Source: Lineus longissimus (lineage: Eukaryota; Nemertea; Pilidiophora; Heteronemertea; Lineidae). From it: a stretch of 64,000 bases of DNA. The notes under the pieces were generated by a model. It was not told the DNA's origin, searched no databases, and saw only the letters and a list, made by a program, of their open reading frames with translations. A program made the translations under genes and the position numbers. The stretch is taken from the NCBI RefSeq assembly GCF_910592395.1, contig NC_088320.1, forward strand, positions 3,038,001 to 3,102,000, read 5' to 3'. Shown piece after piece: positions 8,490 to 34,621 of the stretch. The first letter of the stretch is position 1, and each line of letters opens with the position of its first letter.

Positions 8490-9185
8490 ACCTCCTCCGG
8501 CGATCGGCCGTGCTTCGTCAAGCTAGGCCTCAAAGCCGGGCCCCAGAAGACCAGCAATTATCGAGAACGCTATAAACCAGGTACCGTACTTTCATATCCT
8601 GTCCTACTAATGCTAGCGACTAGGCCTACGGTATGGTAGAAATATATACTAGCAGTGACTGCTAGCTATCTGCAAGTCTCGGTCTACAAGAAGACACACG
8701 ACCCAGTTATGAATAGCTAGGCCTGTTAGAATGTATGTCACAGATACTGACCCATTAGGCCTATGTACTTCTCGGGCTACTCACCTTTCTGAGTGCCTGC
8801 TAGCTGCGTATGCCTTTTACTCTGATATACACGTGTATGAGATTCATCCTTAAATTAGTTCCGGAGGTTTAAAAGCGATGTTCAATATGTCAGAGGAGTG
8901 ACGACGACCACACCATCCGAATATGTATACCAAAGGTCACTACCTGTGTAACATCTGCCAGTGTTTCCCATAGGCCAGTGTTTCCGTATTGTTGCCCCAT
9001 GAAAGGCGACCACTATCGCAAAAACAACCATTCGATATGCCTGAGGAAACGCTCACTCACATATAAGTACCACACTGGTATTAAACTGCACACACTACTG
9101 CCCCGGGTATAGGCCTACATCAGTAATTATCATTAACATTATTGGAGTCAGCACAAGTATCTCCAGCTGGTGATAATATATTGAT
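8490..9185. other. Intergenic, no gene recognised
   Basis: Many 'aggccta' and 'ctagc' words occur but there is no open frame, splice-consistent exon or repeat structure that I could support. Confidence 0.5.
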
Positions 9186-9418
9186 GGCCGGGTCTATTTG
9201 GCAAGCCGCTCGCCGAACAGGCATCTTTTTTTGTCCTGTTTGGAGAGCCGCTTGCTAAACAGCACTAAAAAGCCACCCTGTTCGGCCAGCCGGGCTTGCC
9301 AAACAGGTAAAAAATCTACCCTGTTTGGCGAGCTGGAGACTTAATGAGTTCGGCTCTCCATTCAGGACAAGAAAAAGTCGCTGTTTGGTAAGCCGGGCTT
9401 GCCAAGTAGTCACTTCCT
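9186..9418. repeat. Dispersed element, copy 2 (GCTTGCCAAACAGG repeats)
   Basis: Second copy of the element at 4580-4825, in the same orientation. It lacks about 13 bp (ACTTTAATATTA-like) present in copy 1 and differs at scattered bases. The flanks are AT-rich (ATATTGAT left, AATAAATAATTATTGAT right). Confidence 0.85.
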
Positions 9419-11313: not shown

Positions 11314-11342
11314 TTACCTCCTCGAGGTTGAGAAAGAAATGC
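11314..11342 (-). CDS. Proposed terminal exon of the LamG gene
   Basis: AG at 11344-11343 opens a frame that completes a Cys codon with the preceding exon and reads ISFSTSRR then TAA at 11316-11314. An AATAAA follows at 11225-11220. It restores the phase, but the exon is short and 1.5 kb away, so other terminal exons between 11342 and 12898 are possible. Confidence 0.4.
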
Positions 11343-14300
11343 CTGCAATGCAGAATAAAGAGTGTAAGTACAACAAAAACTGAAAACTAAAAAAACACAG
11401 AGTAACGAGTTTGGCCAGGCGCGCGTACACTACGGACTATTAAAATCAAAGGTGACAAAATCAGAAGGTCACCGAATCGATGACTCTGAGCAACAGAAAT
11501 TTATCTGCTTGATTAGTTGATAGACTATCTTTTACCAATCGGCAATCTTGACAGTTCTGTTGCCCAGACTGTCGCTCTCGATTCAGTTGCTCGTGTGCGC
11601 CGCACTTGAACTGTATGTGGCCCGCCAACATGCTCTAGTTTCACCGATCTTGGTTCGGTTGACTGAGCTTGAACGTGACGTCATCACCATTGGCGAACAT
11701 TGCCTATCCAAATCACTGCTGAATTGAACCAAATGACCATGACGCTCAGTACATGTATTTAGTTGGAATTACCTACATGTGAGCAGAACCGAAACCATGA
11801 ATATGCTGCTTACGGGCCACAATACACTTGCCAGAATATGTTGTATCATGTTTAAGGGTTGACCGTAGTCACCATCATTTTGGCTGGAACGTGAAATCAT
11901 AAAGCAATTAGAACGCTTTCAAATGAAGTGAATGCTAGTTTCAAGGGCGGGAATCTGTTCTCTGGAAAACAAAGAACCGACTCCAGCCCTTGAAATTGAC
12001 ATTCACTTCGTTCTGAGAGAGTCCTAATTAATTGCTTAACAATTTCACGTTCTAGTCAAAATGGTGGTTCCTATGGTCAGCCCTTAACTGGTGACAGAAT
12101 TTGACACATGGTGTGTAATACGCACCGTATTTTTTTCCATTCACCTTCACTGTAAATATAACATGGGCAGTGAGATTAACGTACATGACATGAATCACAT
12201 GAATGAGGAACCGGTGTGGCGGGGATAGTAGTCCTAGGGCTGATAGTCCGTGTAACAATAGCCCGCATTGCTAAATGTTTTGGTTAGGGTTAGCGGTACA
12301 ATAGATCATGCTGCTTAATTGGTCAAATACAATGTACCGGACTATGACTCCAGGGGGACTATATCCGCTGTCACACCGGCAGAACTGAAAATGCAGATGG
12401 CAGCACCACTACTAAAAGGTACACTTCCAGTGCATTTTCCATTAAAATTAAGTTTTGTTGATTTTCTCCCTAAAACTCATCAAAATAGAATTAAGGTCCA
12501 ATAAAACAACATTTTGGTGCTATTTCCCCATGTAGAGTAATTAAGGGATGAAATATTCAATAATCATTGACCCGGGAAATGGGTTTCTCATTACAACCAT
12601 GGTCCACTTGCCTACACGGCCCCCTATTGGCAGGTTTTGTTGTGCAGGTTCCTCATTGGATTGGAAGATGATACGCGGTTGTATCGAGCAGCCCAAATTA
12701 AATCATTCGTGAGAAGAATAAAAGTTCTATTCAACAGAATTCAAGTGTGTTTCTAATTCGTTTTCGGAAGAGTAACCAAAGGTAGGCCCCAGAGTGTTGA
12801 CCGAGCGATTCTGGTCAAATGTTGTGATATTTAAAGCGCTTCTCACCAAATTATACATAACACTACATGATTGTATTGCAGGCAAAGGTATACTTACACC
12901 ATCCCATGAACGAGTTGGCGTCTTTCACTGAAATGATGGAGATGAAGATTCGAATGATTTTATCGTGGAATCGTGAGCGAATGAACGTGGTTTTGAACTT
13001 GATGGTTGGCTGGAATATTTCGAGTCTGGAGCTCGTTTGATTTAGTTGAAAATTGAGAAAGAGTGCCTACGACTCTAAACCTGACCCCATATCAAAAGTT
13101 ATTAAGTGCTGTTACAAGAACCAATAAGCATATCTATTTGTCACTTAAAAAAACATTCAATTGAGTTTGTAATAAAATGATGGTGCACTGTAGTCATGAA
13201 ACTTACCGATGCATGTATTTCCTTTGCTTGCTGTACCCGTGGGACATTTACCCTCGAACATTGTATTAGGGAACTCTTGACCATTCGCGAAACCGCCTCC
13301 ACCCGTGGTGGTTGAAGTCTCGGTTTGAGTCGTGTATTCACCGCCGCCGCCGCCGCCAGTGGTAGAGCCTCCTGAAAGTAAATTATCATGAATTCTCGCA
13401 CTGCACCACCTGACCGGGCGACTATTGAGAAACTTCATTACCACTAGCTGGCAGCATGGACTAAAATTACTTTCACGCAATCCGTGATGGCAGCAATAGT
13501 TAGCAGTACAGTACAATACGAGACCGCTTGTGTATGGATAGGAGTTGTATAGCGCCACCTTTAGGGATATCCCTTTTACCGTTGAATGCCACATTTGAGA
13601 TTGTGACATCGATCTTTGCAATCACTTGTAGACCACTTGGCAGTGATCCGCAACGCTTTTTGAGCAGCATTAGCTTTGAGAGAAAAAAAGGCCAAGGGTG
13701 TGGCGTCTTAGTACATCTATCACACACACACAGATCCCTCTGAGACACCATCACAGGTGACATCATAAATTATGTGAGACGTCACGAGTTATGTCGTGTG
13801 GTCTCAAATATTTTCGTAGTCACAACTTTAAATTCTTATGCTAACACACGTACATACTGCCTGACTACGGCACGATTTACGGAACGGAATGAATGTCACT
13901 TACCGCCAGGAGCAACCTCTTCATCTAATTTTTGAAAAGAAAAAAATAAGGATTTAGTGTATACGCCAAAAAACACCAAGCAGTGAAACAAACCCAATTT
14001 CGCACTTCGCCCTTTGCTATTTTTTCGAGCATGGCGTGGCAGTTTTGTGGCTGACGTGAACAAGACAATGCATATTGCTGTAGTAGGGTTCCAGTGCTAT
14101 CACATAACATTTGAGCCGTGGTGGCTTGTACCCGAGTGTCTATGCAAAGACGAAAAAGATACCCCACAAAAAGGTGTATATTGTTCGTTTTGCCTCTTAC
14201 AAGAGTATTCGATTCCGTAAGCCTTTGCGTTGATCTTCACTGAAGAGAAAAACAGAGTAACGCCAATTCAACGTTCTGTATGAATCGTTATTTATAGAAA

Positions 14301-17300
14301 GAGTTTAAAGAAATATTTTTACACATCACTTGTATCCTGGTTGAGCATTTGCCCTATCAACTCAACTGTTTCTTTTTTAATACATATATTTTTTTATTGA
14401 GGAAAAAAGAACAAGATGGACAAATTACATCAAACAGATAATTCATAATTCTTTCAAAAGATGTTCCCCGTTTGGTTTTTAGCTTTTCAGGTAAAGTATA
14501 TTATATTAACTCAACTGTGGACCAATGGGAATTTATCAAATACCCCAGGATATCTCTACGTGTGACTCAGTTAGTGATAAGGATAATTTGTGATGTTTTC
14601 CGGGCACAACTGAGCCCATGTTCGGCCTACTTAGGTAACGTTGAGGTCGGGTATAATTTATTTTTTCACAATTATATTGCGGGATGAAGCAATAAGAACA
14701 ACTAAAATGATGTTATACTTACACCAGGCAAGGAATGAGTCTGTGTTTTCAACTAGAATAAAAAATACCATTTAAATGAGACGAAATAGCATTGTTTACT
14801 TATGAAGAAAAAAATGTTTGAATCGCATCTTTTTTTGATTTGATAAACTTTCCTGTTATGATCAAGCAAACACATCAGTTAGTTTTCAGTGACAAAATCA
14901 GCTGCCCTTGACTCAAGAGTTCTGTTATAGAGCTCCAGAGTTTTGTGGTCAGGGTATGGTGTCATTTTACTAGCATTCCTCTCATTTAGTTCTAGAGTTG
15001 GGTAATAAATTCCAGTAGGTAGGTATAGTGTATGTAAGCATAGTGCCAAGTCCATGTACTCACTCTCGCAAAATTTTCCAACAGTTTTGGTGCCCTCAGG
15101 ACAGGCACCCTTGAACATGTCAATGGGGAATTTCTGTCCGACCGAAAATTCCGTGGTGGTGGTGGTCGTTGTCGTGGTGTAGACTGCAAAGGGCATAAGA
15201 ATCGAATGCAAAATTAGTAGACAAGTCACATTTTCTTCCTTTCGAGAAAAACGACCAAAACCATGTCCACGTCATTAGAAAATATATTGTGCAGACCACT
15301 GATATAGAATGATGAAACTTTCAGAGAATGAGATCTTCACCAAGTGCTGTTTCGAAAGGCTAATAACTTTTTTCTTCATCATAATGTAAGATGACATCCT
15401 ATTTGCATTCACAATTGGAAAACATGTATTTGAAGGCGATGACTTGGCGAAACCAGCACAAAAAGTTGCCGGGGCGATTCCGATTCCGAATGGATCAATA
15501 TCATGTTGCGATGATGAAATTTGACGGATCGGAATGGGATTTGACGGAATGGGACTGGGATGAAATCAATTTGACGGAACGGTACATGCAATCAATGATG
15601 ATTGGCCGAATAGCAAAATACCGCATCACTAGTTATTCTTGTAATATTTAGATTTACTTACAGGGCAGTCTCGCGACTGGAAAGAGAATAATGAAATTAC
15701 CATTAATATTAATGATACCACCTATTAATCAACTGTTTTTGTTGAATTCCATTATAAGAGGTAAATCTTACATCGTATTTTTCTAATATCAAACCGGGGA
15801 GAAATATTATTATACAAGAATAATGTCTAAATAACATCACGCTGATGTTGACTGTAAACCACCGAAATATTTTCGTGGATTTTGCGAATTAATGAGAATC
15901 GTCGCCAAAAAACAACAACAAATCATTTTTGTCAGTACTCACAGACAATATGGTAGGTGGCGGCGTGGATCTTAACTGAAAGATGGAAAAAGTTGGAAAA
16001 CATCAAGCGAAAAAAATCATGATTTGATTAAATATCTTAAATGTCAAAATAAAAAAGAGTGGATCCTATGACTCTGTAATAGATTTATTGTTGTTAGACC
16101 TTGAGAAGAAGGAATTGAAAAGAAGCATAACTTCCTGTCTGATTGGCCAATCAGAGACTCTCATTCTTCTCATTCTTCTGTTACTGAACCAATCACAAGA
16201 GTTTGTAGACTTTTTGGCCAATCAGAGACACTCGTTCTTCAGTCATAGTCTTATTTACTGAATCAATCCCAAGTGCTCGGACGACTTGTCTAGTACAACC
16301 TACAGCTGATACACGTTGATCATATATGTCATTATGATAATAGACGGAAAATTAACGAAGTGAATGCATGACTTGTGACGATGTCCAATACTCACGCCAT
16401 GCGATGAAAATCTTGTAGTCGGTTACTGCAAAATAAAAAAGAAATCAGTATTACATTGTATATTCAGTATGATACCTCCTTGGGTTGAAATGATGAAGAC
16501 AGGGATGACAAGGTGGACAGCTTCTATAAATAAACAGATTAGCTTTAAAGGGAACTGAAACCGCCAAGCCAGTTCGTATGACCTCGTTTTCATTTCCCGC
16601 GTATCGGGTGATCAGAACGAGGCATGAATGAAACATGGCGCCTAGCTGTCCATCATTGAGTGACGTCACTACTATGGAATTTACTACGAAAACGAATGAA
16701 TGAAAGATCGCATGACTCACGTGATTCTCACATGATTCTCAATAATAACAAATTGAACTGCGCATGCTCGGGCACTGGGGGCGGAGCTACAAATCTGAAC
16801 TCGAATAGGAAGTTGGAAGTTTGACTTTCTCGGGCGGTGAAAGTCGAAAAGTTGAATAAATCGCTCGGCGGTTCCAGTTCCCTTTAATTATGAATGGAAA
16901 AACACCATAATAACCTGATGTAGAATATCTCTAATTCTATCTAATTTTCATACTTCTTTTTTTCTGTAATCGCCATTGGTTTCTCTTGGCATTGGTTAAG
17001 TGTAAAACATTGATACCGAACTGGAAGGATGCTGCTTAATCTTGGATTACTTACTGATGCAGTCGTCTCCCTCTGATTTCGTTCCTTCGGGGCATGTAGC
17101 AAGTCCCTTGAAGACACCTCTGAGGTCGAATTTACCGCCTGAAAAGTAAAGACAATATTTCGATCAGTAAAGTACATGCCGACTTATCGGCGGTGAACAT
17201 CAGTCCTAAAGTCTCCTCCTTTCAGTTGTGACGGTCGATCTGGCGAAGTTTATCTGCCGTGAATGATGGATATACGCACAACGACGATGGTTCGGCATGG

Positions 17301-20300
17301 TAAAGTCCAACTATAGCGCAGTTGAAAAAAGGATTATTCCAATATTTTAGGCAACAATGGATATTATTTTGTGCTTTAGTTTGATAAAACAATTAAGGGC
17401 AATGAATCGCCGACAAATGGCATCATATAACTAATCTATGTAGCCAATCGTTTGGCGTATCAACAGAATTGGGGCTAACAGTAGGTAGTGGTAAAGTGGC
17501 AAACGAAGAGAAGCAGAAAAGGTGATCTTACCAGGTTTTAGGTTTTCTTTGGTCAATTTGGTTGGTGCTAAAAATAGAAATATATAGATGTTCAGGTGGA
17601 CAACGAGAAATATTGCAGATCATCATCGTATCGTTTTTAGCTCACCTCTTAGCAGAGGTGAGCTTATCCCATACCGTGGCGTCCGTCGTCCGTCGTCGTC
17701 GTCGTCGTCGTCGTCGTCCGTCGTCCGTTAGCAGGGCACGTTTCGTAACTGTTAGAGCTATTGAGTTGAAACTTGGTACACATGTACCCTTATGTAATGA
17801 CACCTTGGAGACGAAGTTTCGGTCCGATTCGTTTCATGGTTTGGCCACCAGGGGGCCAAACGTTAAAAGTGAAAATATGCAATATCTCCCTTAATAGTAG
17901 TCGGGAAATTTTGAAAAAAATATGGTAGGTACTTCTAGCAAAGGTGCATCATATATCCTCCGGGTTTTTGATTTGACCTCCTTTTCAAGGTCACAGAGGT
18001 CAAATGGTGTAAATTGGCCGTTAGGATGTAACGATGGCACGTTTCTAAACTGCAATGACTATTGATACCAAATTTGGCACACATTTACCCCTTAGTCAGG
18101 TGATCTCAGGGACCGAAGTTTGGTCCAATATGATTCACCACTTGACCACCAGGGGGCAAAATCCAAAAACCTTAAAAATGTGATTATTCCTTAACTTCTT
18201 GCCCGATTGCCACCAATTTGATATCATGGGTACATCTTACCACCATACAGTATATGTCACACAGGTTTTTAATTTGACCTTCTTGTCAAGGTCACAGAGG
18301 TCAAATGGCGTAAATTCGCCGTCAGGCCGTAACTATGGCACGTTTCTTAACTGCAATGACTATTGATCACAAATTAAGTACACATGTACCCCTTGGTCAG
18401 GTGATCTTAGGTACCGAAGTTTGGTGCAATCTGATTTGCCGTTTGGCCTCCAGGGAGGGGGCCAAATCCTAAATTCTTGAAAATGCCATTATTCCTAGTA
18501 ATGACTTGCCCGATTGGCACCAATTTTATATCATAGGTACATCTAATTCTAACAACCATTCAATGTGTCACCCGGGTCTTCTTTGATTTGACCTCCTTTT
18601 CAAGGTCACAGAGGTCGAATGTACTGTAAATTGGCCATTTTGGGGAAATTGTAATTGCTTGGACCTACATCAAACCTAACACTACATGACACAATACCAT
18701 GCTCTTTATCCATCTTTCCTCCACATGAGGTGAGCACAATGGCCCTGGCCATTTCATTAATAGTAATCAGCCATCGACAAGGACATGGGCAGGGGTGCGC
18801 ATTTTTGCGCATACCCATGTTACCGCTTTTTAAAAATGACAAGAGTTTCCTGATATCTTGTTACCGGAGATGTACGTGGCGTAGTTGGATGGGAGAGCAT
18901 GAAGGGTCAAATAGCCCGATCGGGCTACCATATGCCCAGTGAGTGGCATAGTGGTTACAGGAGGTCGCGGGTTCGATGCTCAGAAGGATCACCGCTGTTT
19001 CGAGTATGCTATATGCTGCAAGTATATTTCGAACCTGGGTGACGTTCCACCCAGGACAACATTCATTCCAACATATAACTGACAAGAGCTGAGCCGGCAA
19101 TTTCTCTGGTACCTTTAGGCTTCTCCTCTTTTGGTTCGGGCCTTTCTTCTGGTTTTTCTTTCACTGGTTCCACTATATAATAGAGAATAGGAAAGTTCAA
19201 TTTAAAAATCACAGGCAAATTAAAATACTTTGATTCAGTGGCCTGTGTTTTCCCTCATGCATGCCGATTTATCGGCGCTGTGCGTTACTCTCTCCTGTAC
19301 GTTACTCTCTCCTTCAGGCATTGTTTGGGAACGCTGGAAACAAACGGACACACTCTTCTGTTCTCCCGATTAAAATTGATGTTTATAGCTGTCAATCATG
19401 TAAATACTATGATAAGGGGAGCAACACAACTGTTACACCTATTTTATAAGGAATTCACGTTTTCATTGGCCACTTGAATGACAATGAGCGCTTCGGGAGA
19501 AGTCTAAATATCAATATTTTGAAAATGACAAGAGTTTCCTGATATCTTGTTACCGGAGATGTATGTGGCGTAGTTGGATGGGAGAGTATGAAGGGTCAAA
19601 TAGCCCGATCGGGCTACCATATGCCCAGTGAGTGGCATAGGGGTTACAGGAGGTCGCGGGTTCGATGCTCAGAAGGATCACCGCTATTACGAGTATGCTA
19701 TATGCTGCAAGTATATTTCGAACCTGGGTGACGTTCCACCCAGGACGACATTCATTCCAACAGATAACTGACAAGAGCCGAGCCGGCAATTTCTCTGGTA
19801 CCTTTAGGCTTCTCCTCTTTTGGTTCGGGCTTTTCTTCTGGTTTTTCACCTCCTTTCGCTGGAACCGCTATATGTAGAGAATAGGAAAGTTCGATTTAAA
19901 AATCACAGGCAAATTAAAATACTTTGATTCAGTGGCCTGTGTTTTCACTCATGCATGCCGATTTATCGGCGCTGTGCGTTACTCTCTCCTTCAGGCGTTG
20001 TTTGGGAACGCTGGAAACAAACGGACACGCTTTTCTGTTCTCCCGATTAAGACTATGATAAGGGGAACAACACAACTGTTACACCTATTTTATAGGAATT
20101 CCCATACAACTCATACCTACAACTTGGACAAACCTAAGTTGTTATTGGACAAAGCCTATAATCTTAAATGTCTATTTAAACCACACTCGCTGGTGATCTT
20201 TGTAGAAGGAATTGGTAGAAGAGGCTCCTTGTAATCATGGCCATAAAAGTCCGAGTGGAAAATATCAGACAACCTTACCAGTGAATAGTACGGGCTGCGC

Positions 20301-23300: not shown

Positions 23301-26300
23301 GCCCCGGTGAAGCGGTAAAGGTGATAGAGGTAGGGAATTCGAGGGAAGTGGCGAAGGTCGATTCTGTACCAGTGTGCGTGATACCTACAAAAGAATGAAA
23401 GAGTAGAAACTGACGCATCACTGCTAATGTTAGCACCACCTTTCAGTTACATGTACCACCACATGAGCACGAATTGTGAATCTTGACCGATGAAATTTGG
23501 TTCCAACTAAATCTTCTTTATTCAATTGCTCTTTTCAACAAAACTTTATAAGTGGGATCATACGAAATAGAGGTATCTGTGATTTTGAAAAAAAGTTCTT
23601 AAGGGTTTTTCATTTCGCTGGAAAGGGGTGCATGTATGCGTTGGCTGAAAACCCCTAAAATGTTTTCCAAAAGCCAAAAACCTTTATTTCTAAAAGTTTA
23701 TAGTGACACACGAATCGCTTTGGCTCCGTTCTGGTACGGATTCGCACCGCCCAGCTAAAAAAATCTACAAGTTATTCAACCCTGACTCCAATTTGAATGG
23801 CTTGAACTTAATTCTATAAAATCGCTAAAATAGCAAAGGCACGCAAGTTGCATTTGAATACTTCTTATAACAATGAGAAAAATACAACGGATAAAATTCC
23901 ATATTTCTGACAAAGATTTGCCAAAAATTAAAAGCTAAGCAGCAAAGCAGCAAAGCCAGTAAATTAAACTTACCTAAGCCACCGCCTGAAGAATCTCAAA
24001 TGGATGACTCGGCATTTCCTGCTCTTCCCTACTCTCTTGGTCCCTTGCATACACCTCCTGCGCCTAAACCATCTCAGATTAATGATGCCACCTGGTGTTG
24101 ATAAAACAAATAAAGGTTGCGTTGTCTTTTTTACGTATATGTATCGTATTTTACATGTAGTTCAAGAAGTTGATGAAGAAATTTTGTAGCTGATTTGATG
24201 GTTAAAAAAGCCCTTTTGAAGAAAAAATCAAATCGAGGTAAATATATGTAGTTTTTTTACGCCAATGACGAATTTGGTCTTACGTTTGGGTGGATCTCTC
24301 CAGGAAAAATAAATATGAACACTTTAAAAGAGGTATGTCTTACCCTTCCTAAAGTTCAACCTCAGCTTTTTCAAGAACGGGAATCCGCCTGCGAATTGCA
24401 AAAAAAGAGATGCGCGAGAATTGACAATCATTGTTACTTGTTACATAAAGAAACGGATGTATAGCACGAACATTTTGCCAAACCTAAGTTGTTATTGGAC
24501 AAAGCCTATAATCTTAAATGTCTATTTCAACCACACTCGCTGGTGATCTTTGCAGAAAGAATTGGTAAAAGAGGCTCCTTGTAATCATGGCCATAAAAGT
24601 CCGAGTGGAAAATATCAGACAACCTTACCAGTGAATAGTACGGGCTGCGCAGGACTTTTCCCTATACCTGTCCTTGAAATATACTGTGTGCGCTTGTTGA
24701 CAATCAATAGTCAATTATGATTACATTTCACCTACGTAAGAACATAATCAGCAACATCATCTTAGTCATATTAGTTGAATGAGCAATATCTAGTGTTGTT
24801 AGCAGGCGCATGGGAAGCAGTTCCATGCTTCCACGTACAGGGTGGGAGGTCTATTTTCAAATCTACCTTTGACAGACTCTAGAATTGAATCTGCAATTGA
24901 TGACTCTGATGAGATATATATTGTCACACTTACTAATTAGTCTTGTGAACCTAGCAAATGTGCGAAGAGGCAGAATATTTCTGGTGAATCTGAGGTCACC
25001 AATCAGACCATAGAAGTTCTCATCTTTACTGTCCATCTTGTATCCGAGTTGGAATCTTGGGTATGGATTTGCGAACAAGTTCCCTGGCTTGCCCCTCACG
25101 GTTTTAACCACCTTTCCATTGACGTAGATCTTTGCAACGCCAGTGTGAGCGTTCCATGAGAATCCTACGGAGTACCATATGTTCGGCAGGAGCTTTCCAC
25201 CTCTCATATCCCCAACCTTGTCTATAGTCTGGGTCGGTCCACGGAGGAAAAGACCAAGTTGACCACCCTTCCAGATCCTGAACAGGTACTGCCATCTGTT
25301 TGACGCCCAGTTAGCGATCAGGACCTGGTTGCGGCTAACGGTCTTGGGCTTGACGTAGAAACTGATGGTGAAGCTTCCGCCGTATTTGTTGAATCTCGGT
25401 CCGGTAGCAAAGGCACCTTTCTTGCCTGGGAAGAACAGGTCTTCCTTTCTCTTGATGACGACACCAGGGCGACGTACGATTCTCCATCTTCTCGGCTTCG
25501 GGCGGCCGTTGAAGTGGAAAACATGGTAGGTTATTGGGATGCGTGTGAAACGAGAAAGGTTAAAGTGGAAGAACTTATGGTGTTTTCGTATCCATCTAAA
25601 AACGAACCTTGGGCTGAAGACTGGAAAAGAAAGAAGAGAAATATGAAAATAAAGATCACCTGAAGCCACTTCTGATTGGAGAGGAAGTTTGTATGTGCAT
25701 GCATGCGTAGGCACTCAATTAAGACTCCAGCGAGTTGTAGCCAATTTGCTGAAATCATTTTTAGAAATGACAAGGACGTTCTAGAAAAATAGTTTGTTCG
25801 GGCCACAATTAATCGAGGACAGGGGACTAATCTAGGATTACAGTGACCTTGACTGAACCCCGTCAGCCTCGAATCTACCCACCTTTGCATGCTCCCGTCT
25901 TTCCGATTCTCTTAGTTCCATGCATGCATCTACGAAGTCCTCGGAACCACTTAAGATGAATGATACCTCCCTTCCTGATCTGCTTCCTGAAGATTTTGCC
26001 GTAACGGAATCGGTGAACTATAAAAACGCAGTAAACTTACTAAGTTAACATGATAGAATTGCCGCAATTCATTAAGGCTCTGGGAATAAGCGAGCTGATG
26101 CACTGGGAAAGCACAGGATGCAAAAGGAAAGCACACCAATGCTGACAATGATGCATTGGTAGTCCTTCGGGGACTCTGCTGCAATAAGCGGTAGCGGAGA
26201 AGCACGACAGGTTGTGGACATCATTGCTCCCAATTAAAGGGACCCAACTCCTCTGATATCGTCCCAGGTTCCACACGTCCCCAGTTCTGTTAAATGGTTG

Positions 26301-29300
26301 CAGTGAATAGTACGGGCTGCGCAGAACTTTGCCCTATTCCTGTCCTTGAAATATACTGTGTGCGCTTGATTACAATTAATAGTCAATTATTATTACTGCC
26401 GATGTTGCCACTTACCGCCATGATGGTGTGGTATCTTTGCGTATTGGGCAATCTTCCAGACTTGCTTGACACCAGAGCTTCTTCTGGTCGCTCTGATTCT
26501 CCTGAATGGCTTCCTGTGGTAATAACATCTATGGGTCTGTCCATTGAAGTCCACGGCGCGGCACCAGCGGACGCGTTCACACCAGTTACGGCAACGGCTG
26601 GAAGTGAATCGCCCCCTGATGAGAGTGCCGCCGAGGGCGTGTTGACCAGGGAAGAGACGCATCAAACGGTTTCCGTGGGCAAAGTGGTAAAATCGTGGTC
26701 GTGGAAGCCTGCTGATGTTGATGGCGTATCGTGGTCCATGTCTGACCACTGTAATGATTGGGAAAAGGAAAGCATAGCTGGAGTTGAGACGAAAAAGCAC
26801 GGAGACAGTTTCTTCACATTTTCAACTAGTTCGTTAATTAAGTACAATACTTACTAGGTGGATAGCACTTGGCATTGTAAATAACTGGAAACGCTTAACT
26901 CAAGAAAATTGCTTTTGGCTGTTTTTGCAGTAAGCCTTTTTTAGATTCCTAAAAATGCACATGTAAAGGAGTCATATCACTTCTTGAAAGGTCCTCTTTG
27001 CCACTGGCAGGGAGGACGTTATTCCGAACATTTGAATATTGTGTCTTGCTATATTATTTCAACTTACACCATAGGTAGAAAGCACCAGGATGATGGACTG
27101 AAACGGAAAATGAAAACATCATAAATCTACATTATAAAACTCTTACAAAAACATAAAATGACAAAAGGGTGGTGTATATAGAGAAAAGGAAGGACTTGTT
27201 TTCTCTGATGTTCTGGCGATGGCAGGTGCTCACAAAAGAATCTCCAACCGATTTCCATTAAGAAAACGCATTGCCGGATCTTTCAGGACCCAAACCTAAT
27301 TCTTTATCAGCGAAGTAGGCAAACAGTTAGTTGTGTTTATTGCACCCTGGAGGTGAACATTTGATACTGTGTATTCACTGAACGGATCGTGTCCTAAATT
27401 ACCCGAATGAGCAAAGCTATTAAATGGTCCTACCTCCGCATGCTGTTCCAAATTTCTTGAAGGATCGCGTTACTGTTGTTCCTGGTGGGCACTTATGTAG
27501 TCGTCTGAACCAGTTGAGGTAAATCTTTCCACCTGGAATAATCAAAGGAAAGTTTTAAAGTTTGTGCGACTGCAAAAACCTCGCCAAAATGGCATTTCGA
27601 AGTTTGACCTACTCCACTTTTAATCCACACTTGCGGTGTTTGGTTAGACAACTATTGAGGAGAAGTATTCGAAGTAAGGTTTCAATATTTGTAATTGAAA
27701 ATTTTTCGTTATCAAATAAGCTACATGAAAGAGTGATCCGCCTCGTGAGCACTTCAAAACTTGCATGGATTTGAATATTGAAAAGTAAGCTGCCTTTTAG
27801 ATTCTTAAACGTAAGCATTTATTGACGAGCCATATTGTCTCGTCGGAAAAACTCGCGCTGGAATCGAACCTGGGCGACCTCACAAGTGACAGACGCTGAT
27901 ATATATTTCGATCATGATCTCACCACTGCACAAAGACGAAAAGGAGAACGATAGTTTTGGTAAAACTACACAAATACACTGCTCACCTGTTCTCAAGTTT
28001 CTCCTCAAGCTCTTCATGTATTTGAATCCTCCCAAATGGAGGTTGAAATTCTTGATTCTTCTGGACAGCATAATAAACCTCCTTCTTGGGACTACGCCTC
28101 GGTCGATCCTGAGCCCAGCAATGTATCCATAAAAGTTTTCATCTTTGCTGTCCTGTTTGAAGCCAATGGCGGTCCTGCCTGGGTTGGGGAAGAGCTCGAC
28201 GGGATATGGGAATTTGGACTTTTTCGAACCCACGAGCTTGCCATTGAGGAATATTCTGAAAAACCTAGTGCGCGCGTTCCATCTCAAGGCAATATGATAC
28301 CATCGATTACGGAAGAGTTTTCCAGCCGTGGATGGAATGACCGCCATGTTGACACCGGGTTTTGGTCCGCGACGGAGCCAGGCACCGAGGTGTCCGTTGA
28401 CAAGGTGGAGTTTGTAAAGCCATCTTTCCCTGACCCAGCTGCCGATCAGAGTCTGCCTGCCGGTGACTCGCAGAGGCTTCACGTAGAAACTGATTGTGAA
28501 GCTGCCGCGGAATCTAATGGGCCGGAAAGTGGCGGTGGAACCCCTGTGGCCTGGCAAAAACAGGTACTTGTTCTTGACGATTCTGACACCACCACGGCGC
28601 CGGATTCTCCACTGCGGTTTGGCGTGGCCATTGAACGTGAAGTAGTGTATGAGGGTTGGTACTTGTGGCAAACGATCCAGGTTGATGTGGAAATGGTGGG
28701 CGTGACGTCGAAGCCAGTGTATAAGGAACTTGAGGTTTTTAACTGTAAAAAATAGAACCCACAAATTACTCTCGTAAAAATAGTACAAACAGACACTGAC
28801 CAGAGACAAGGTATTTCGAGAAAATAATTGTGTCAAAACTGTTGCTGCATCATCAAAAATGTGTAATCAGCCGAAATTTCACTGATGCATTTTATTTCAA
28901 ATCGACCAAAAAACCGGTTGGCCTACATGAAGGAAAATACGGCTTTGGACAAATACAACAAAGTGTGACGTAGATTCGACTACCATTTCCTGCGAAATGT
29001 ACAACTAGACGGTATGGTACATGTACTTACTTTTGCATCTGTGGCCATGTCTCTTGGTTCCGTGCGGGCAGTTCTTCAAACCTCTGAACCATTTCAGTTT
29101 CAAGTGGCCATGGTCTTTGAGGTGACGCCTAAGGTGCTTGTAGAACCTGCATGAAAATCAAAGCAGCTGATTGCTGTGCACAAGAGTATACATGTATATT
29201 AAAAAAACTGTGTGTGAAATTGTGTGCCAAAGACTGTACTACACGTGCTTCTAAGGACTGAATTTCAAACACACCGGTATGAAAGGAATATCATTCGTCG

Positions 29301-32300
29301 CGGAATGCATGAAGATATACTAGCCACAAAACGATTATGCTGTAAGATTTTGGTCAATGTTTGCTAGTTGGATGGCAATGTCAAATGTAATCCCACAGAC
29401 TATTGTTTGGAGAGTTTCATTGCCAATGGACTGTCATTTCTGTCACATCATAGAACGAAAAAACACGTACTTGAAGCGGTATCTATGGAGCCATTTAAAT
29501 ATTCGCCTGTTGATGCCGAATCTGTGTCCATGAAGCTTCAGCCATTTACGGTAGAAGGCGAAGCGGATAACCTCACAACGTCGTCCGTATCTGGAATGCA
29601 ATAAGAAACAAACCATGAAGATTATGCTCAGAAAGGAGATGCCTAGAACAGCTAAACGAAACAGTTAGAGGTAAACACATTCGGCTTGGTACTGGTCCTG
29701 GTACACGTCATGTGTATGTACGAAGTGGCCCCAACAACGGTTGACCATACTTCCGCAACGATACGGATGCCAGGTTACATTATAAGTGTACGCCAAGTTG
29801 TGTGGCTACCAACGTAAATCTAAAATGTCGACATCGAATAGAAGTATTTTGACAGTACAATGCTTCAGGCTTGTGATAATTTTCTTATTTTTTGAAAATA
29901 CCGTATGTGCGAACCCTACCTGCGTGTTCCATAAGGGCAATGTTTCAAGTTACGGAACCATCGTAGATTGAGCCAACCGCCGGGTCGGAAGTTTCTCTTC
30001 AAAAGCTTGCCAAACTTGAATCTGACGACTGAAAGTTACAAGCAAAACAATCCTCGGTTAATGACATAGTCTCTGCATGTGCACTATCACGTGACCAGCA
30101 GGAAACTACACAGCCTAGCTTTATGAATCATTGCATGTTTAAATCCTTTCCAGTAGAGGATCGTCATTTGAATATTTCGCTCACGGGGATGTGGTGTAGG
30201 TCATTGCGTTGGAAGCACTGTTGAACCTTCCAACCAGCTAATTCGCATGAGAGTCGCCCAGCCCCGAACAACGGATCGAAAATTCCTTCGTATCTAAGGT
30301 CGCCCTGGCGTATTAAAAAACGAACTACAAGTGAACTTACATTCAAGGTGGAAGAGCTTACGGCCGTGTCTGCGGACTGGAAAAAAGCAAAACACTTCGT
30401 TGGATTAAAGAATTAATTGGAGGAGATATTTTTTTGACCCAGATAGTGCTTCACCGCATTGTGTATTGATAGTAAGCGGTTTGTCGATCGGTTTCGTATC
30501 TGGCACTACCATTTTGGGCAACAGTAACTTTGTCATCAGCCACCCAACCCGCTGGTATCCTGCGGGTGTCCTTCTTCATCAGTACGATCAGGGACTTCTA
30601 CAGCAAACATTATATGCAAACATGGCGGTTTAATGAGAGGGGCTTTTCTCTATATTTCGCTAGGAATCATTGTCTTTATAGATGTATTTCGCTACTTAAG
30701 TAACATTTGCCGGCGATACAACGAAATCAGATAAACTCAAGTAAGTGCATTTTAGCAACAGAACGTCATTCGATTTTGAACGAACTAAAAAAGATGAACT
30801 TACGGAATCTGGCGAAGATCCAAAAATTGAAAACTGAAAGCATAGAAAAGAATTGCTTATCATTCGCAACTGAAAATAAAATGTATCAGGACTGTTGAAT
30901 TTTAATAGGCATTTCACAAGTTCTCTCGTATAGATAGCGTCCACTCTGCGCAATTTCTGCCGCAGCTCGCGATCGTTCGCCATTCGTCAGGCCATTCGTC
31001 AGCTCGCATTGGCCCCACATGTACGCACTAACCTTTGCAGTTGGGGACACCTCTTCTTTTGGGGAAGTTTCTGCTGCCGGGAAGGCAGAATCCGAATGGA
31101 ATACGTTTGTTCCGGTGATAACGGAAGAGACGCTTTCGGTATACTTTATCTGTGATTGAAGAAGAAAAATAATGACTTCCTACAACACTAGGTATAATTA
31201 TAATAATTCTTCTAGTGAATACTGCACAGTTTTTACAGCTGAGGTGTATTCTATAGAGTTACCAACATTTCGGATTCCTGACTAACCAAAAACTGTGCCT
31301 AACCAAAACTCTTCATTAGCTTAGCACCCAGAGAAGAACGTATTTTCGCAATGGCGTAAAAGAGTTGGGTGAAATAAGAAAGTAACTATAGGGAAAGGAG
31401 AATTTTGTAATGAATAAAGGGACAGCGATTGGAGGGTCATTATGGAAATTTACTCACGTGGTGTGAAGACGTAACGTTTACCGCGGAGGTAGAAAGTAAA
31501 CCTTTGCCTCCTTGCAGGATGCTTCCCTTTTCTTCTGAACAGCCTGATCCCGCCGACTGAAGTGAGAGTATATCGTAAGTATTATAACATCTACGTGCAA
31601 CGATACTGAATTCAGTTAAAACATATTGTCAAATAGGGAAGCGGTTGCCGGGGTCCTTGCCACAGGCATGTAGAAAATCCTGCTGCCCGTAACTAGAAGA
31701 TGAATGCACACCGAGCATTTCCCTAGCCTTGGTAAAATACGTAAAACAGTTGACAGCAGGAAAATTTGGACTATGTCTCCACAAATGAGTGGAATTGTTC
31801 TACATTCAAGCATTTGGATTTTCTGGTATTCTATAGTACCGGGGGACGAGCCAGGAATTAAGGTTGCATGACGCTAACGCTGTCCGCGGCGTCTCCATCT
31901 GCATCGGCACTTACTGACGAAGTTCATCGCGTTTGTCACCAACAATCTCCATCTATCTACAACACCCTACAGTTGCCGTAAGTGCAAAGTGTGCGCGTGT
32001 TGCATGGTCAACAGAAATAAAGCCTCTTTAGTCTATAATTTGGAAGAGTTTTGAGATAGACTAGAGAAGTCAAGAATGGACTTTGTTTCAGTCGATGTAC
32101 AGTCAAGAGCACACTATTATTTACATGTACGGGCATCACGTGATTCCGTATTGGCGCCCTCTAGCGGATGGCCTTCACTTACATCTCAATCCGAACTTTG
32201 GTGCAAATCTTCTAGCTGTTGAAATAAAAGAATGAATGGTTGATCACTTTCTGGTATTGCTCTTCATTGGTAGAAGAGTTCATCATTGTCTCGATAGTCC

Positions 32301-34621
32301 AAATAAACCATAACGCGTTGTTATACAGCAGGCAAAAGAGGCCAGTATGTAACTTCACCACTTTCTGCCACGCATTTATACCAGAATAAAGAACGTTGTC
32401 CGTGGTTATGTGCGGTATACGCCGCATACATGTAATTAGTAAATGTGGAGTCAGGCATTTACGGGCTGAACTGCGTTTTGTGAGAAACATTTAAATTTCT
32501 CAACGGACAACTCTGGCTTGAAAGCTTAATTTTCATCGGGCTGTTAACCCAAATGCCCCTCTGTCGGTGACTTCGGATATTCGGGATATAATTTTTCATG
32601 TCATTATTGTGTACTTACACCAGTTCATGAAGAAAGCCAGGTTGAAGACTTGAAATAGAATTGAGAAAATTTTGGAGCGGGAGGTGAAATGTCACAAATG
32701 TTAGGCGAAACCAATCGAGCCGAAGTAAGTTAAAGGAAACCAGTCGAGGAATGCATATAAAATGGGAGGAGGTAGCCTTTTACTGATAAATGATATGCTG
32801 ATTTTTGCTTCGGGTTCTTATTATAATCTGGTCTGACATCTAGAACAGAAATAATAGCAATTTTGTAGCATCGATCAGTCTTGAAACTAAAAGTTACTAC
32901 AAACCACCGAGTCAGTTTCTCTTTAAAAAAGTGATCGAAGCGAACAATAAAAGATTTTGTCGCGCAGATATTTCCCGGCCGTGATGGGGACCCGATTCCT
33001 TTCAATCTGGCAAAGATTGAGAGTCGTAAGTTCTGGATTGTTAAAATGCTCCGTCGTCTTCTACTTACTCTTGCAGAAAGATCTGTTGACGGGATGGCTT
33101 CCTGGTGGGCACCCTCTGAGGGTGCTGAACATTGACCGCCTGAAGAGCTTGCCAGCACGGAAGATGATACCCCCACAGCGGTGCGCTGGAAAAGAATCAG
33201 TCGGGTGAGATTCAATTCATTCGCAGACTTCCGAGAGCAGAGTTTGACCAGCGCTTTATATTACCCCCAAAAAGAGCCTTCCGATTGGCGGTGTGTACAG
33301 CAGCCATGTATAGCAGCGCTGAATTTGACTTGCACAGTAATAATTATAAGGTTTCGGCTGGATCGCAGATCGGATACTGTAACAGTAGAACATACACGGT
33401 ATGTATACTGTCTGTATATTTATAAGGCCATTTCGTCAGTATATAATTAACCATCGTGCACATGAGGTTCTGTTGAGAACCATTGTTACTCGAAAAACAA
33501 CAGATTTTCGTGCATTTACTCTGACCAAACAGAGTGATGGTCATAAACTGATGATACTGAATGGGTAGTGACTGGGATGAACACCCTGCTGATTTCATTC
33601 CACGTTGCCTGCGACTTGACTAGGGAGCCCGTGTCATATATAGCATGGATGACAGGCCCAGAACTTCCACATGCGTATCTAAAAACTGATCATATCATTA
33701 TATGTCATAGTCATGAATTTATATACTTCGAAGTTATAACTCACGTCTTATTCGATGTCCCGTCGGCCAGAATCGCCGTCTCTCTAAAACAACGAAAAAC
33801 AAATATATACCCAACGAAGTTCGTCGGTCAGAAATAAATATTGGCGACGTGCCGAGTGAAAATGATGAACTAACAATCGAGAGGTACAAAAATGTACATG
33901 GACATTAAATCTCATGTGACGATAATCGCATACACCAGCGATGGGGATTGGTAATAGCTATTTAAATCGCTTGTTTCGGCGAGTAGTAACTTAAACTAAG
34001 ATTATGACATGAAAGATTAATCACTGTCATTATGAATTGAATCTGACACGCCTTCATCAATATAATTAGCTAATGAAAGAATCATGCCTATTTCACTTAT
34101 TACCTTACCGTGTGAATGACCATGGCCTTTAAGAAAGATAAGAAGATTATGCCGTGAGATTGGAAGCCTCAGTTTCCCGTTCGAAGAAAATTTAAAAGTT
34201 GGCCCAGACTAATGAAATGAATCTGACACGCCTTCATCAATAGAATTAGCTAATGAAAGAATCATGCCTATTTCACTTATTACCTTACCGTGTGGATGAC
34301 CATGGCCTTTAAGAAAGATAAGAAGATAATGCCGTGAGATTGGAAGCCTCGGTTTCCCGTTCGAAGAAAATTTAAAAGTTGGCCCAAACTTTGCACTTTC
34401 AACTTAAACTTACAAACTGAGTGCGGAGATTGGACAGAGTTTGTATGGGGCAACAATTTTTGTCATTGTTAATGTCAGACAATACTATGGTGTGTTAGAA
34501 TGGTGGGAATGAAGGGCCAATGCAAATAGTTTTTTTATTTCTAAAAACTTGACTTACTTCCGTGTACTGCGAGGATTGCTATGCACAATGCCAATAGCGT
34601 GAGAGACGTTAAAGTCCCCAT
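11314..34621 (-). CDS. Large secreted LamG / CPxGT-module protein, about 34 exons
   Basis: Predicted secreted, probably extracellular-matrix protein of about 1744 residues. Exons, from the start: 34621-34558, 33185-33069, 32648-32619, 31556-31458, 31149-31033, 30376-30341, 30028-29920, 29590-29471, 29146-29031, 28742-27987, 27532-27434, 27097-27068, 26748-26416, 26017-25883, 25620-24934, 24388-24344, 24091-23974, 23384-23271, 22754-22186, 21662-21528, 21265-20579, 19867-19802, 19172-19113, 17567-17532, 17138-17055, 16425-16396, 15975-15943, 15676-15662, 15183-15064, 14752-14723, 13924-13904, 13371-13207, 12927-12898, 11342-11314. Every splice has GT/AG and frame is kept. Almost all introns are phase 1. 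Order: signal peptide, Lys/Arg/His-rich N-terminal part, LamG1 (270-521), PAN-like (565-675), LamG2 (721-949), LamG3 (1004-1231), LamG4 (1277-1505), Pro-Glu-Lys linkers, Thr/Gly-rich tail. Eleven two-cysteine CPxGT modules are interspersed. The family is not recognised. The smallest exons and the last exon are the least certain, and some exons may be missed. Confidence 0.85.
11852..12087. mobile_element. Foldback MITE, family A, second member
   Basis: The ends TTAAGGGTTGACCGTAG and CCTATGGTCAGCCCTTAA are inverted copies, and pairing continues through CATTTTGGCTGGAACGTGAAA and AAGCAATTAGAACG to a centre near 11975. It is related to 6281-6450. It is non-coding and lies in the last intron of the LamG gene. 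Confidence 0.8.
12898..17567 (-). CDS. Exons 24-33: C-terminal CPxGT modules 9-11, Thr/Gly linkers
   Basis: Three modules follow: GGKFDLRGVFKGLATCPEGT..DDC (17138-17055), FSVGQKFPIDMFKGACPEGT..KFC (15183-15064) and FANGQEFPNTMFEGKCPTGT..NTC (13371-13207). Each is followed, directly, by a 30-nt exon ending in Trp: ITDYKIFIAW, IENTDSFLAW and VKDANSFMGW. Linkers are a nine-Thr run before module 10 and GGSTTGGGGGGEYTT with a TETSTTT stretch before module 11, likely O-glycosylated. Exons of 36, 33, 15 and 21 nt between them are phase-consistent but supported only by splice sites. Confidence 0.7.
16545..16887. mobile_element. MITE with TTAAAGGGAACTG ends
   Basis: The left end TTAAAGGGAACTGAAACCGCC is matched, inverted, by GGCGGTTCCAGTTCCCTTTAA at the right. 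The body is about 340 bp with no coding capacity and contains CGATTTTTC-like and GACTTTC words near the right end. TTAA at both ends may be part of the target duplication. It lies between exons 22-26 of the LamG gene, in an intron. Confidence 0.7.
17639..18750. repeat. Dispersed element with three internal repeats of about 300 bp
   Basis: Starts TTTAGCTCACCTCTTAGCAG with a (GTC)n run at about 17690-17720 and ends near GAGGTGAGCACAATGGCC, so short AGCTCACCT/AGGTGAGC ends are inverted. Three internal units share CAAGGTCACAGAGGTCAAATG (17985, 18285, 18600), CCAGGGGGCCAAA and GCACGTTTC words. 'TTTTAGCTCACCT...GTCCGTCGTC' repeats are known to me from several marine invertebrate genomes. No protein is encoded. 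Confidence 0.7.
18834..20100. repeat. Tandem duplication of about 690 bp carrying PEK exons
   Basis: Copy 1 at about 18834-19450 and copy 2 at about 19524-20100 are over 90% identical, starting AATGACAAGAGTTTCCTGAT. Each contains one PEK linker exon and the intron word TGTTTGGGAACGCTGG. This directly shows how linker exons were multiplied in the LamG gene. Confidence 0.85.
19113..19867 (-). CDS. Exons 22-23: Pro-Glu-Lys linkers
   Basis: Exon 22 (19867-19802) encodes TVPAKGGEKPEEKPEPKEEK and exon 23 (19172-19113) encodes VEPVKEKPEERPEPKEEKPK. They are tandem copies inside a duplication of about 690 bp. The PEK composition predicts an extended flexible rod between the LamG block and the C-terminal modules. 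It marks the switch from a basic to a mixed and acidic sequence. Confidence 0.7.
20279..20317 (-). CDS. Possible 39-nt exon after LamG4
   Basis: An AG at 20319-20318 and GTAAGG donor after 20279 would define a phase 1-1 exon encoding SIGKSPAQPVLFT. An identical copy sits at 24667-24629 after LamG2. It keeps frame whether included or skipped. The acceptor has a weak pyrimidine tract, so I left it out of the main model. Confidence 0.35.
20579..21662 (-). CDS. Exons 20-21: CPxGT module 8 and LamG domain 4
   Basis: Exon 20 (21662-21528) encodes GGIIHLKWFRGLRRC, then MQGTKRIGKTGTC. Exon 21 (21265-20579) is the fourth LamG exon. It differs from LamG2 at only a few residues (SPRYLF for SPRFVF near the start, IWYFIGF for IWYSVGF in the middle). 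Introns between the two exons are also nearly identical to those of exons 14-15, so the duplication is recent. Confidence 0.9.
22186..23384 (-). CDS. Exons 18-19: LamG domain 3 split over two exons
   Basis: Exon 18 (23384-23271) encodes YHAHWYRIDLRHFPRIPYLY and the start of the domain up to KPHNPKWRI. Exon 19 (22754-22186) continues with RKGGVRYIKKGILYFPGKRG, HSFTISFYVKP, RWQYLFRIQKGGQLGLDL, TGVATIYLNGKVVG and LGYKMDSNNENFKGEIAGLRL. The other three LamG domains are in single exons, so this copy either gained an intron or keeps the ancestral one. Confidence 0.88.
23974..24388 (-). CDS. Exons 16-17: basic spacer and CPxGT module 7
   Basis: Exon 16 (24388-24344, 45 nt) encodes SGFPFLKKLRLNFRK. 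Exon 17 (24091-23974) encodes GGIINLRWFRRRRCMQGTK, then the second Cys in SRKCR and IHLRFFRRWL, which carries the Trp unit inside the same exon. Exon 17 ends in phase 2, one of the few departures from the phase-1 rule, matched by exon 18. Confidence 0.75.
24479..26302. repeat. 1.8-kb intragenic duplication, copy B
   Basis: Direct copy of 20129-21952 at an offset of about 4350 bp, covering the possible 39-nt exon, LamG2 and CPxGT module 6. A third fragment resembling the 39-nt exon (AGTACGGGCTGCGCAGAACT) follows at about 26308, without a good donor. Confidence 0.9.
24934..26017 (-). CDS. Exons 14-15: CPxGT module 6 and LamG domain 2
   Basis: Exon 14 (26017-25883) encodes GGIIHLKWFRGLRRC, then MHGTKRIGKTGAC. 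Exon 15 (25620-24934) is a 687-nt LamG exon beginning VFSPRFVFRW, with GSFTISFYVKP, NRWQYLFRIWKGGQLGLFL, TGVAKIYVNGKVV and LGYKMDSKDENFYGLIGDLRF. The pair is almost identical to exons 20-21 at 21662-20579, 4355 bp away. Confidence 0.9.
26416..26748 (-). CDS. Exon 13: PAN/Apple-like domain
   Basis: A 333-nt phase 1-1 exon for residues 565-675. After GGTLIRGRFTSS it has cysteines spaced C-x3-C-x5-C-x11-C (RCRNWCERVRWCRAVDF, then HRCYYH), the core pattern of PAN/Apple domains, where a central helix is pinned to the sheet by disulfides. PAN domains bind proteins or carbohydrates outside the cell. The remainder is basic (RRIRATRRSS). It is the only one in the gene. Assignment is by pattern only. 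Confidence 0.6.
27068..27532 (-). CDS. Exons 11-12: CPxGT module 5 plus Trp mini-exon
   Basis: Exon 11 (27532-27434) encodes GGKIYLNWFRRLHKCPPGT and then a longer loop to the second Cys (FKKFGTACG). Exon 12 (27097-27068) is 30 nt and encodes VHHPGAFYLW. Both junctions are phase 1. The same exon pair architecture recurs at 17138/16425, 15183/14752 and 13371/12927. Confidence 0.8.
27987..28742 (-). CDS. Exon 10: LamG domain 1
   Basis: One 756-nt exon, residues 270-521. The fold markers are clear: GSFTISFYVKP (strand), TLIGSWVRERWLYKL, NRWYHIALRWN, FRIFLNGKLVG, IGFKQDSKDENFYGYIAGLRI. This is the LamG_3 / concanavalin A-like jelly-roll pattern. It starts with a ten-residue unit ending in Trp (IKNLKFLIHW), like the separate 30-nt exons of this gene. 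It is the most divergent of the four LamG domains. Long antisense frames overlap it (28036-28755 plus) and are not genes. Confidence 0.9.
29031..33185 (-). CDS. Exons 2-9: very basic region with CPxGT modules 1-4
   Basis: These eight exons encode residues 22-269, dominated by Arg, Lys, His and aromatic residues. Cysteine pairs occur as GCPPGS...SFC (exon 2), FCLPGS...PNC (exon 5), HCPYGTRRYGRRC (spanning exons 7-8) and NCPHGTKRHGHRC (exon 9). Exon 7 carries GGWLNLRWFRNLKHC and exon 9 HLKLKWFRGLKNC, which share the pattern L-x-W-F-R-x-L before the first Cys. Exon 3 is a 30-nt exon ending in Trp (IFNLAFFMNW). The charge would be extreme at neutral pH, which suggests binding to acidic polysaccharide, nucleic acid or mineral. 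That is inference. Confidence 0.8.
34032..34391. repeat. Tandem duplication, two 180-bp units
   Basis: GAATCTGACACGCCTTCATC recurs at 34039 and 34219. The units differ at only a few bases. They lie in intron 1 of the LamG gene, about 170 bp from exon 1. No coding capacity is seen. Confidence 0.9.
34558..34621 (-). CDS. Exon 1: signal peptide of the LamG gene
   Basis: The ATG at 34621 opens MGTLTSLTLLALCIAILAVHG, a polar start, a Leu/Ala/Ile core and a small-residue end typical of a cleaved signal peptide. The donor GGAA|GTAAGT follows at 34557. This is why the start is placed here and why secretion is predicted. Confidence 0.85.

Follow-up and report, generated by a model that had tools for sequence, protein, structure and literature searches.

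A basic two-cysteine module and linker combined with LamG and PAN-like domains in a predicted secreted protein of the ribbon worm Lineus longissimus

Introduction

The closest described counterpart of the protein considered here is Mlig-ap1 (Macrostomum lignano adhesive protein 1), a large secreted worm protein of flatworm glue in which K/R-rich regions are combined with a lectin domain (PMC6410801). Attachment by Mlig-ap1 is blocked when anionic carbohydrates bind to its K/R repeats, and charge-based binding of acidic carbohydrates has been proposed as its mechanism (PMC6410801). In nemerteans, the proboscis glands produce sticky mucus that may hold prey, and toxins are the focus of the work found on ribbon-worm secretion proteins (PMC11768458; PMC9132205). 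Other points of comparison are the Laminin_G_3/ConA-like lectin proteins (PF13385), mollusc shell-matrix proteins with LamG3, and the oyster bindins, which carry one to five tandem F-type lectins in the sperm acrosome (PMC5712786).

The present analysis concerns a window of 64,000 nt, the whole stretch of DNA that was analysed, which corresponds to chromosome 13 (C13):3038001-3102000 in the 391.1 Mb Lineus longissimus genome. The original prediction, made from this stretch, described a minus-strand gene for a large secreted protein with four LamG domains, a PAN-like domain and eleven copies of an unrecognised two-cysteine module, and proposed a matrix, adhesive or biomineral role. Gene structure, domains, charge, paralogy and evolutionary constraint were computed here. 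The domains themselves are known; what appears to be new is the module, a linker that accompanies it, and the use of both across LamG, PAN and F-type lectin domains. Three features go beyond the original prediction, namely a strong positive charge, the shared linker and a paralogue that carries F-type lectins; of these, the linker and the paralogue are hardly visible from the window alone.

Gene structure and exon model

The gene lies on the minus strand and runs from 34621 to about 11314. As predicted, it opens with a leader: the ATG at 34621 is followed by a hydrophobic stretch (Kyte-Doolittle 2.24 over 19 residues, compared with at best 0.74 elsewhere) that is signal-peptide-like and from which we infer secretion. 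Six-frame reading of this strand gave four LamG exons, the third preceded by a short exon of its own, a PAN-like exon, and short exons with the pattern C-P/M-x-G-T...C (Table 1).

A splice model built from general donor and acceptor consensus sequences and from the codon usage of the clear exons yielded 31 exons under a strict exon penalty, with nearly all junctions in phase 1, and 45 under a loose one. It inserts micro-exons that were judged untrustworthy, two of which, present in both runs, stem from a repeat in intron 1 (34032-34390, two 180-bp tandem copies) and are spurious twins. When an exon was retained only if it had a domain, a module or at least some backing from the paralogue, the result was a model of 22 exons encoding 1608 residues (pI 11.7, about 190 kDa), with no stop across the 1608 codons and with three exons that are weakly supported (31556, 30376 and 24388); the 34 exons and 1744 residues first proposed were not reproduced. 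Additional micro-exon candidates, e.g., 33783-33745 and 32215-32183, possess splice sites and are without a significant match in the paralogue. The phase consistency claimed for the exons held for most of them, in that 17 of the 21 internal exon starts are in phase 1 within an open frame and the other four are in phase 2. Donors and acceptors of this model rank at a median of the top 1.3% and 2.2%, respectively, of the GT and AG sites in the region, ranks that are partly circular, as the exons were chosen partly on these scores. The 3' end is less firm than was first stated: the terminal exon has four candidate acceptors with scores of 5.2-7.1, and the stop at 11314 belongs to one of them.

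The exons in the window probably form a single multidomain gene, one of a two-gene family, and their division among several genes is unlikely because the order of elements is common to this gene and its paralogue, both of which are models. One near-identical database protein, P0001, starts within sequence modelled here as intron and hence looks genomic.

Table 1. Elements of the gene and its internal duplication, in window coordinates.
Feature	Position	Strand	Evidence
First coding exon, ATG and hydrophobic leader	34558..34621	-	hydrophobicity; paralogue counterpart MGTFSSPTLL..., E 0.0037
Module M1	33069..33185	-	leave-one-out E 0.0026; 0/1000 shuffles vs four core modules; best paralogue E 0.037, to M4
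Basic phase 1-1 exon	31458..31556	-	open frame with splice sites; paralogue match weak, E 0.32
Module M2, divergent	31033..31149	-	leave-one-out E 17; 193/1000 shuffles; collinear paralogue match E 4e-5
36-bp micro-exon, linker-like, tentative	30341..30376	-	phase 1-1; 10/1000 shuffles; paralogue model also has a micro-exon between M2 and M3 (2/1000)
Module M3, first part	29920..30028	-	leave-one-out profile; paralogue E 2e-13
End of M3 (second cysteine) and linker, no globular domain after	29471..29590	-	paralogue E 2e-8; linker 0/1000 shuffles
Module M4	29031..29146	-	leave-one-out profile; paralogue E 8e-10
Linker and LamG1	27987..28742	-	PF13385 46.9 bits; paralogue 60% identity, dN/dS 0.14
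Module M5	27434..27532	-	leave-one-out E 1.2e-5; collinear paralogue match E 0.004
Linker and PAN-like domain	26416..26748	-	PAN_1 20.1 bits vs cut-off 21.4; paralogue 69% identity, dN/dS 0.15
Module M6	25883..26017	-	leave-one-out profile; genome search
Linker and LamG2	24934..25620	-	PF13385 57.7 bits; AlphaFold mostly strands, pLDDT 77
Module M7, first part, weakly supported	24344..24388	-	by-eye alignment to M6 first half and end of paralogue PAN-like exon; own best E 4.9
Module M7 and linker start	23974..24091	-	leave-one-out profile; paralogue E 6e-16, nine copies
Linker, first LamG3 exon	23271..23384	-	splice model; linker 0/1000 shuffles
LamG3	22186..22754	-	PF13385 51.5 bits
Module M8	21528..21662	-	leave-one-out profile; duplicate of M6
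Linker and LamG4	20579..21265	-	PF13385 58.2 bits; near-copy of LamG2
Module M9, neutral C-terminal type	17055..17138	-	leave-one-out E 4.5e-5; paralogue E 3e-9, dN/dS 0.22
Threonine run and module M10	15064..15183	-	leave-one-out E 3e-6; paralogue E 1e-16, seven copies
Gly/Thr-rich stretch and module M11	13207..13371	-	leave-one-out E 4.5e-4; paralogue E 2e-13; acceptor at 13371
Possible terminal exon	11314..11342	-	one of four acceptor candidates above 5; no paralogue match
Duplicated block with M8 and LamG4	20129..21961	-	97% identical to 24479-26316

The two-cysteine module

The count of eleven modules with the pattern C-P-x-G-T...C stood for ten of them by profile. When each module was searched for with a profile of the others among 2202 six-frame ORFs, 10 of 11 were recovered at E <= 0.0026, values that are optimistic, as the modules had been picked and trimmed by their own motif. 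The exception, M2, was missed by the profile (E 17) and is carried instead by its counterpart in the paralogue. Composition-preserving shuffles gave the same division, with five of six divergent modules outscoring all 1000 shuffles and M2 beaten by 193. A profile of four core modules alone found seven window ORFs at E < 0.001, all on the minus strand between 17050 and 30035: the four input modules, M8, which nearly duplicates M6, and, as independent finds, M5 and M9. The best non-module ORF reached E 0.066. Six columns (G, F, C, G, G, C) are invariant in an alignment of twelve modules from both genes, and most module exons are phase 1-1 cassettes. The cysteine pair of each module probably closes a small basic loop.

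That the module is unrecognised was borne out by the databases searched. None of the 11 modules scanned against Pfam-A exceeded a cut-off (best E 0.2), and the best match of a PDB profile search, lactotransferrin at E 0.1, is not credible. Searching a protein database with the module alignment at E <= 10 gave no relative among 12 candidates (proteins of about 24-77 residues), and none was found among 136 pattern matches in IMG/VR. A search for long homologues that used residues 1-953 of an early model as query and scored positions 160-953 likewise returned none among 3209 candidates, and Rfam gave no match at gathering score. Among open-licence full texts, judged by title and abstract, there was no report of the module, the linker or their joint use with LamG, PAN and F-type lectin domains. 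Structure prediction by AlphaFold, which had been suggested for a single module and for the LamG pairs, was run; a module alone gave a pLDDT of 58, which is of low confidence and uninformative, and LamG2 alone gave a pLDDT of 77.

LamG domains, PAN-like domain and shared linker

All four LamG exons pass the cut-off of PF13385 (Laminin_G_3; 27.6 bits), in agreement with the original prediction and with the Laminin_G_3/ConA-like lectin proteins, from which the present protein differs in its strong positive charge and its module-linker connector. The predicted LamG2 structure is a mostly beta fold with one helix at either end. A LamG profile matched the pentraxin PTX3 marginally (E 9e-4 over 98 positions). 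The PAN-like domain falls just short of formal recognition, its exon scoring slightly under the PAN_1 (PF00024) cut-off given in Table 1, with the corresponding exon of the paralogue above it at 22.8 bits. No EGF-like, laminin N-terminal or SEA domain was found by Pfam in the exons and stretches scanned, nor an F-type lectin in the pieces of the window gene that were scanned.

LamG domains of this type are not confined to the two genes. A genome search with LamG2 gave at least 64 matches, 5 inside the two genes and 59 outside. Clusters of LamG2-like exons, some with stops, lie at C17:5.54-5.65 Mb, C8:18.65-18.75 Mb, C7:13.86-13.91 Mb and C11:5.14-5.18 Mb and resemble tandem expansions.

A linker of ~25 residues opens each type of globular part, LamG, PAN and F-type lectin, and also follows M3; it is mostly encoded at the 5' end of the exon for that domain. 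Its form in alignment is W-I/L-R-x-H-x-x-x-F-x-I-N-L, with no invariant column. With direct counterparts excluded, 9 of 9 linker copies outscored all 1000 shuffles; the copies were chosen by eye and likeness among the LamG copies is expected, so that those of the PAN-like domain, exon 29590 and the F-type lectin are the most telling. The linker-like micro-exon candidates of the two genes are weaker, being matched by 10 of 1000 shuffles in the window and by 2 of 1000 in the paralogue. The LamG, PAN and F-type lectin folds are unrelated. Because the linker is common to all three, the repeating unit, as read from the sequence, is module, linker and globular domain.

A paralogue with F-type lectins

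A genome search with M6 gave 16 matches up to E 1, of which 5 fall in the window gene and 11 in one other chromosome 13 locus, which points to a two-gene family; this search is of limited sensitivity, since M1, M2, M5 and M9-M11 are not among its matches. The second locus lies on the same strand at C13:4.745-4.795 Mb, 1.7 Mb from the window gene. Eleven elements are collinear in the two genes: leader, M2, M3, M4, LamG1, M5, PAN, M7, M9, M10 and M11. Beyond the values in Table 1, the correspondence is strongest for LamG1 (E 1e-100) and PAN (E 1e-53). The paralogue is without a clear M1 and without LamG2-4, M6 and M8, having one LamG match, and three PAN-like exons lie between its leader and M2, one of them above the Pfam cut-off (28.3 vs 21.4 bits).

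The PAN exon of the paralogue is followed by an array of nine 2175-bp units that are 98.6-100% identical in DNA, and in every one of them an F-type lectin occurs together with a PAN-like exon and an M7 module. The PAN-like exon of these units is under every Pfam cut-off (best 14.3 vs 21.1 bits), and the lectin is clear (FBP32, E 1e-26; F5_F8_type_C_2, 57.4 bits vs 27.8). The histidine of its CTHT motif is replaced (CTCT), for which reason fucose binding may have been lost. M10 is present in seven copies, several of which are missed by the splice model, which also shortens the first exon of the paralogue. The arrays occupy C13:4764735-4783000 (nine 2175-bp units) and 4746872-4760130 (seven Thr-rich M10 units of ~2.16 kb); the number of copies may differ among individuals or reflect how the assembly estimated it.

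Charge

The 1608 residues include 351 K/R and 51 D/E. The excess is concentrated in the part up to LamG4, with 340 K/R and 38 D/E, and the tail of 122 residues is neutral in charge and rich in Thr and Gly. M1-M8 have 93 K/R and one acidic residue in 307; the linkers, at 15-21% K/R, are less basic than the modules. LamG1 of the paralogue has 43 K/R and 8 D/E. Strong LamG charge is not general in the Lineus longissimus genome, as judged by 4 of the 59 matches listed outside both genes, in which K/R and D/E counts are 21-19, 23-20, 21-17 and 23-15. Relatives P0002-P0010 (source 'jgi') are net positive in 9 of 9 cases, from 33-15 up to 55-3.

Selection, recent duplication and other repeats

Selective constraint was assessed on eight exon pairs between the window gene and its paralogue, a set outside of which leader, M2, M5 and M11 lie. 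Four pairs were computable, and these are under purifying selection, with dN/dS of 0.31 for exon 29590 and the lower values of Table 1 for LamG1, PAN and M9. In the pairs of M3, M4, M7 and M10, synonymous change is saturated and the proportion of nonsynonymous differences is 0.16-0.31.

Within the window gene, the duplicated block carrying M8 and LamG4 differs from its counterpart at 48 of 812 non-coding positions (5.9%) and at 4 of 687 in the LamG exon. All four LamG2/LamG4 differences are nonsynonymous and none is synonymous. Because the exon is without synonymous change while the non-coding DNA differs by 5.9%, the pair suggests recent homogenisation of the exon, which looks like exon-limited gene conversion; purifying selection on the duplicated LamG exon, considered as an explanation, was dropped. 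The M6 exon differs from its copy at 7 of 135 positions, about as much as the non-coding DNA, and M6 and M8 give a dN/dS of 0.19 on 7 changes.

Several repeats and a possible gene family lie elsewhere in the window. Three 315-bp tandem copies, 99% identical, at 45433-46376 each contain a minus-strand open frame of 102-104 residues; a direct repeat (37572-37871 and 38564-38863, 992 bases apart) is 100% identical over 300 bases; and a 165-base repeat containing 43-bp tandem units is 95% identical between 4573-4737 and 9178-9342. SPMAP1-related ORFs on the minus strand were found at 50244-50660 (above the Pfam cut-off, 65.1 vs 27 bits) and 53426-53719 (below it, 22.4), and by eye at 52817-53113 and 55172-55612, also on the minus strand, possibly as a small tandem family.

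Proposed role and alternatives

The protein is read here as a polycation with several lectin-type domains that cross-links acidic glycans, whether in mucus, in proboscis secretion or in matrix, a reading to which we give a probability of roughly 0.4. It would be secreted as a chain of repeated units, each with a module (M), a basic linker (L) of ~25 residues and a domain of carbohydrate-binding type, the globular slot being taken by LamG or PAN in the window gene and by LamG, PAN or an F-type lectin in the sister gene. The phase 1-1 module cassettes and the 5'-placed linkers would make such units swappable and multipliable. The cationic M-L part, with its putative disulfide loops, and the LamG surfaces would bind acidic, probably sulfated, polysaccharides by charge, the lectin-type domains would bind glycans or proteins, and one chain could cross-link a mucus gel, an extracellular matrix or an adhesive secretion. 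Ligands, tissue and adhesive role are here argued from composition and from likeness to described proteins.

Of the roles first proposed, matrix or adhesive function would fit both a cationic composition rich in lectin-type domains and the precedent of Mlig-ap1 (PMC6410801), and stays at the level of suggestion. The window protein lies outside the Mlig-ap1 family, since the domains differ: the C-type lectin, VWD and 17 EGF-like modules of Mlig-ap1 are absent from the Pfam matches of the pieces scanned here. The K/R regions of Mlig-ap1 lie outside its domains and are reported to have a pI above 14, whereas in the window protein the charge also covers the LamG domains and the K/R-rich M1-M8 are less extreme. 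Against a role in secretions, neither 'laminin' nor 'PAN domain' occurs in the main text of a proteome study on nemertean mucus (PMC11768458), and in a second nemertean paper laminin is named once and PAN or apple domains never (PMC9132205).

A biomineral protein, the third role first proposed, was ruled unlikely from the source animal, a nemertean, since ribbon worms are not known to possess a shell or any mineralised skeleton. Mollusc shell-matrix proteins with LamG3, compared by description only, are alike in secretion and in PF13385 and differ in that nemerteans are without a shell and the window protein is basic.

The alternative that survives best, though still improbable, is a structural protein of the basement membrane or of connective matrix that binds acidic glycosaminoglycans and has no part in adhesive secretion. 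LamG domains with cationic modules fit glycosaminoglycan binding, and the hydrophobic leader without a second membrane-span-like stretch fits an extracellular protein. However, the domain set is unlike those of laminin, perlecan and agrin, lacking EGF-like and laminin N-terminal domains in the pieces scanned, and conspicuous recent duplications of units are generally unusual in basement-membrane proteins. A laminin or basement-membrane relative as such was rejected, as the domain set does not fit.

Somewhat less probable is a gamete-recognition protein like oyster bindin, of the sperm acrosome or as its egg-coat counterpart. The nine near-identical F-type lectin units of the paralogue recall the tandem lectins of oyster bindins (PMC5712786), although no such lectin was found in the scanned pieces of the window gene and the CTHT histidine is replaced in that of the paralogue. 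The exclusively nonsynonymous LamG2/LamG4 changes could be taken in the same direction, but the four computable exon pairs are under purifying selection. The SPMAP1-like sperm-protein family further along the window is weak evidence, and proximity on the chromosome does not test what a gene does.

A lectin of humoral or mucosal defence, i.e., a cationic protein for pattern recognition by which microbes are agglutinated or damaged, is a slightly poorer candidate still. The cationic make-up, the weak similarity of LamG to PTX3 and the tie of F-type lectins to immune recognition (PMC5712786) are in its favour, but the PTX3 similarity is marginal, and the size and repeats suggest a scaffold.

Least probable by a wide step is a model artefact in which two or more genes have been fused, or else a gene in decay: a 3.4-kb stretch with repeats and a shift in charge do separate LamG4 (20579) from M9 (17138), and the last exon has its four candidate acceptors, but the paralogue, itself a model, keeps the order across that point (M7, then M9, M10 and M11), the frame is open throughout, and dN/dS is below 0.35 in the four computable pairs, M9 included.

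Significance for ribbon-worm secretions

For the cross-linker reading, the gene pair provides concrete candidates for a structural protein of ribbon-worm slime or proboscis secretions. In its boldest form, which is doubtful, M-L would be a new domain serving as an exchangeable plug that joins LamG, PAN and F-type lectin, and the gene pair would be the basis of slime or proboscis glue; so far, the M-L element has been met with in just two genes, both from a single ribbon worm. The connector module is small enough to be made and tested alone. The two genes also suggest how recurrent duplication of cassettes can, within one lineage, make a polycation out of ordinary lectin domains.
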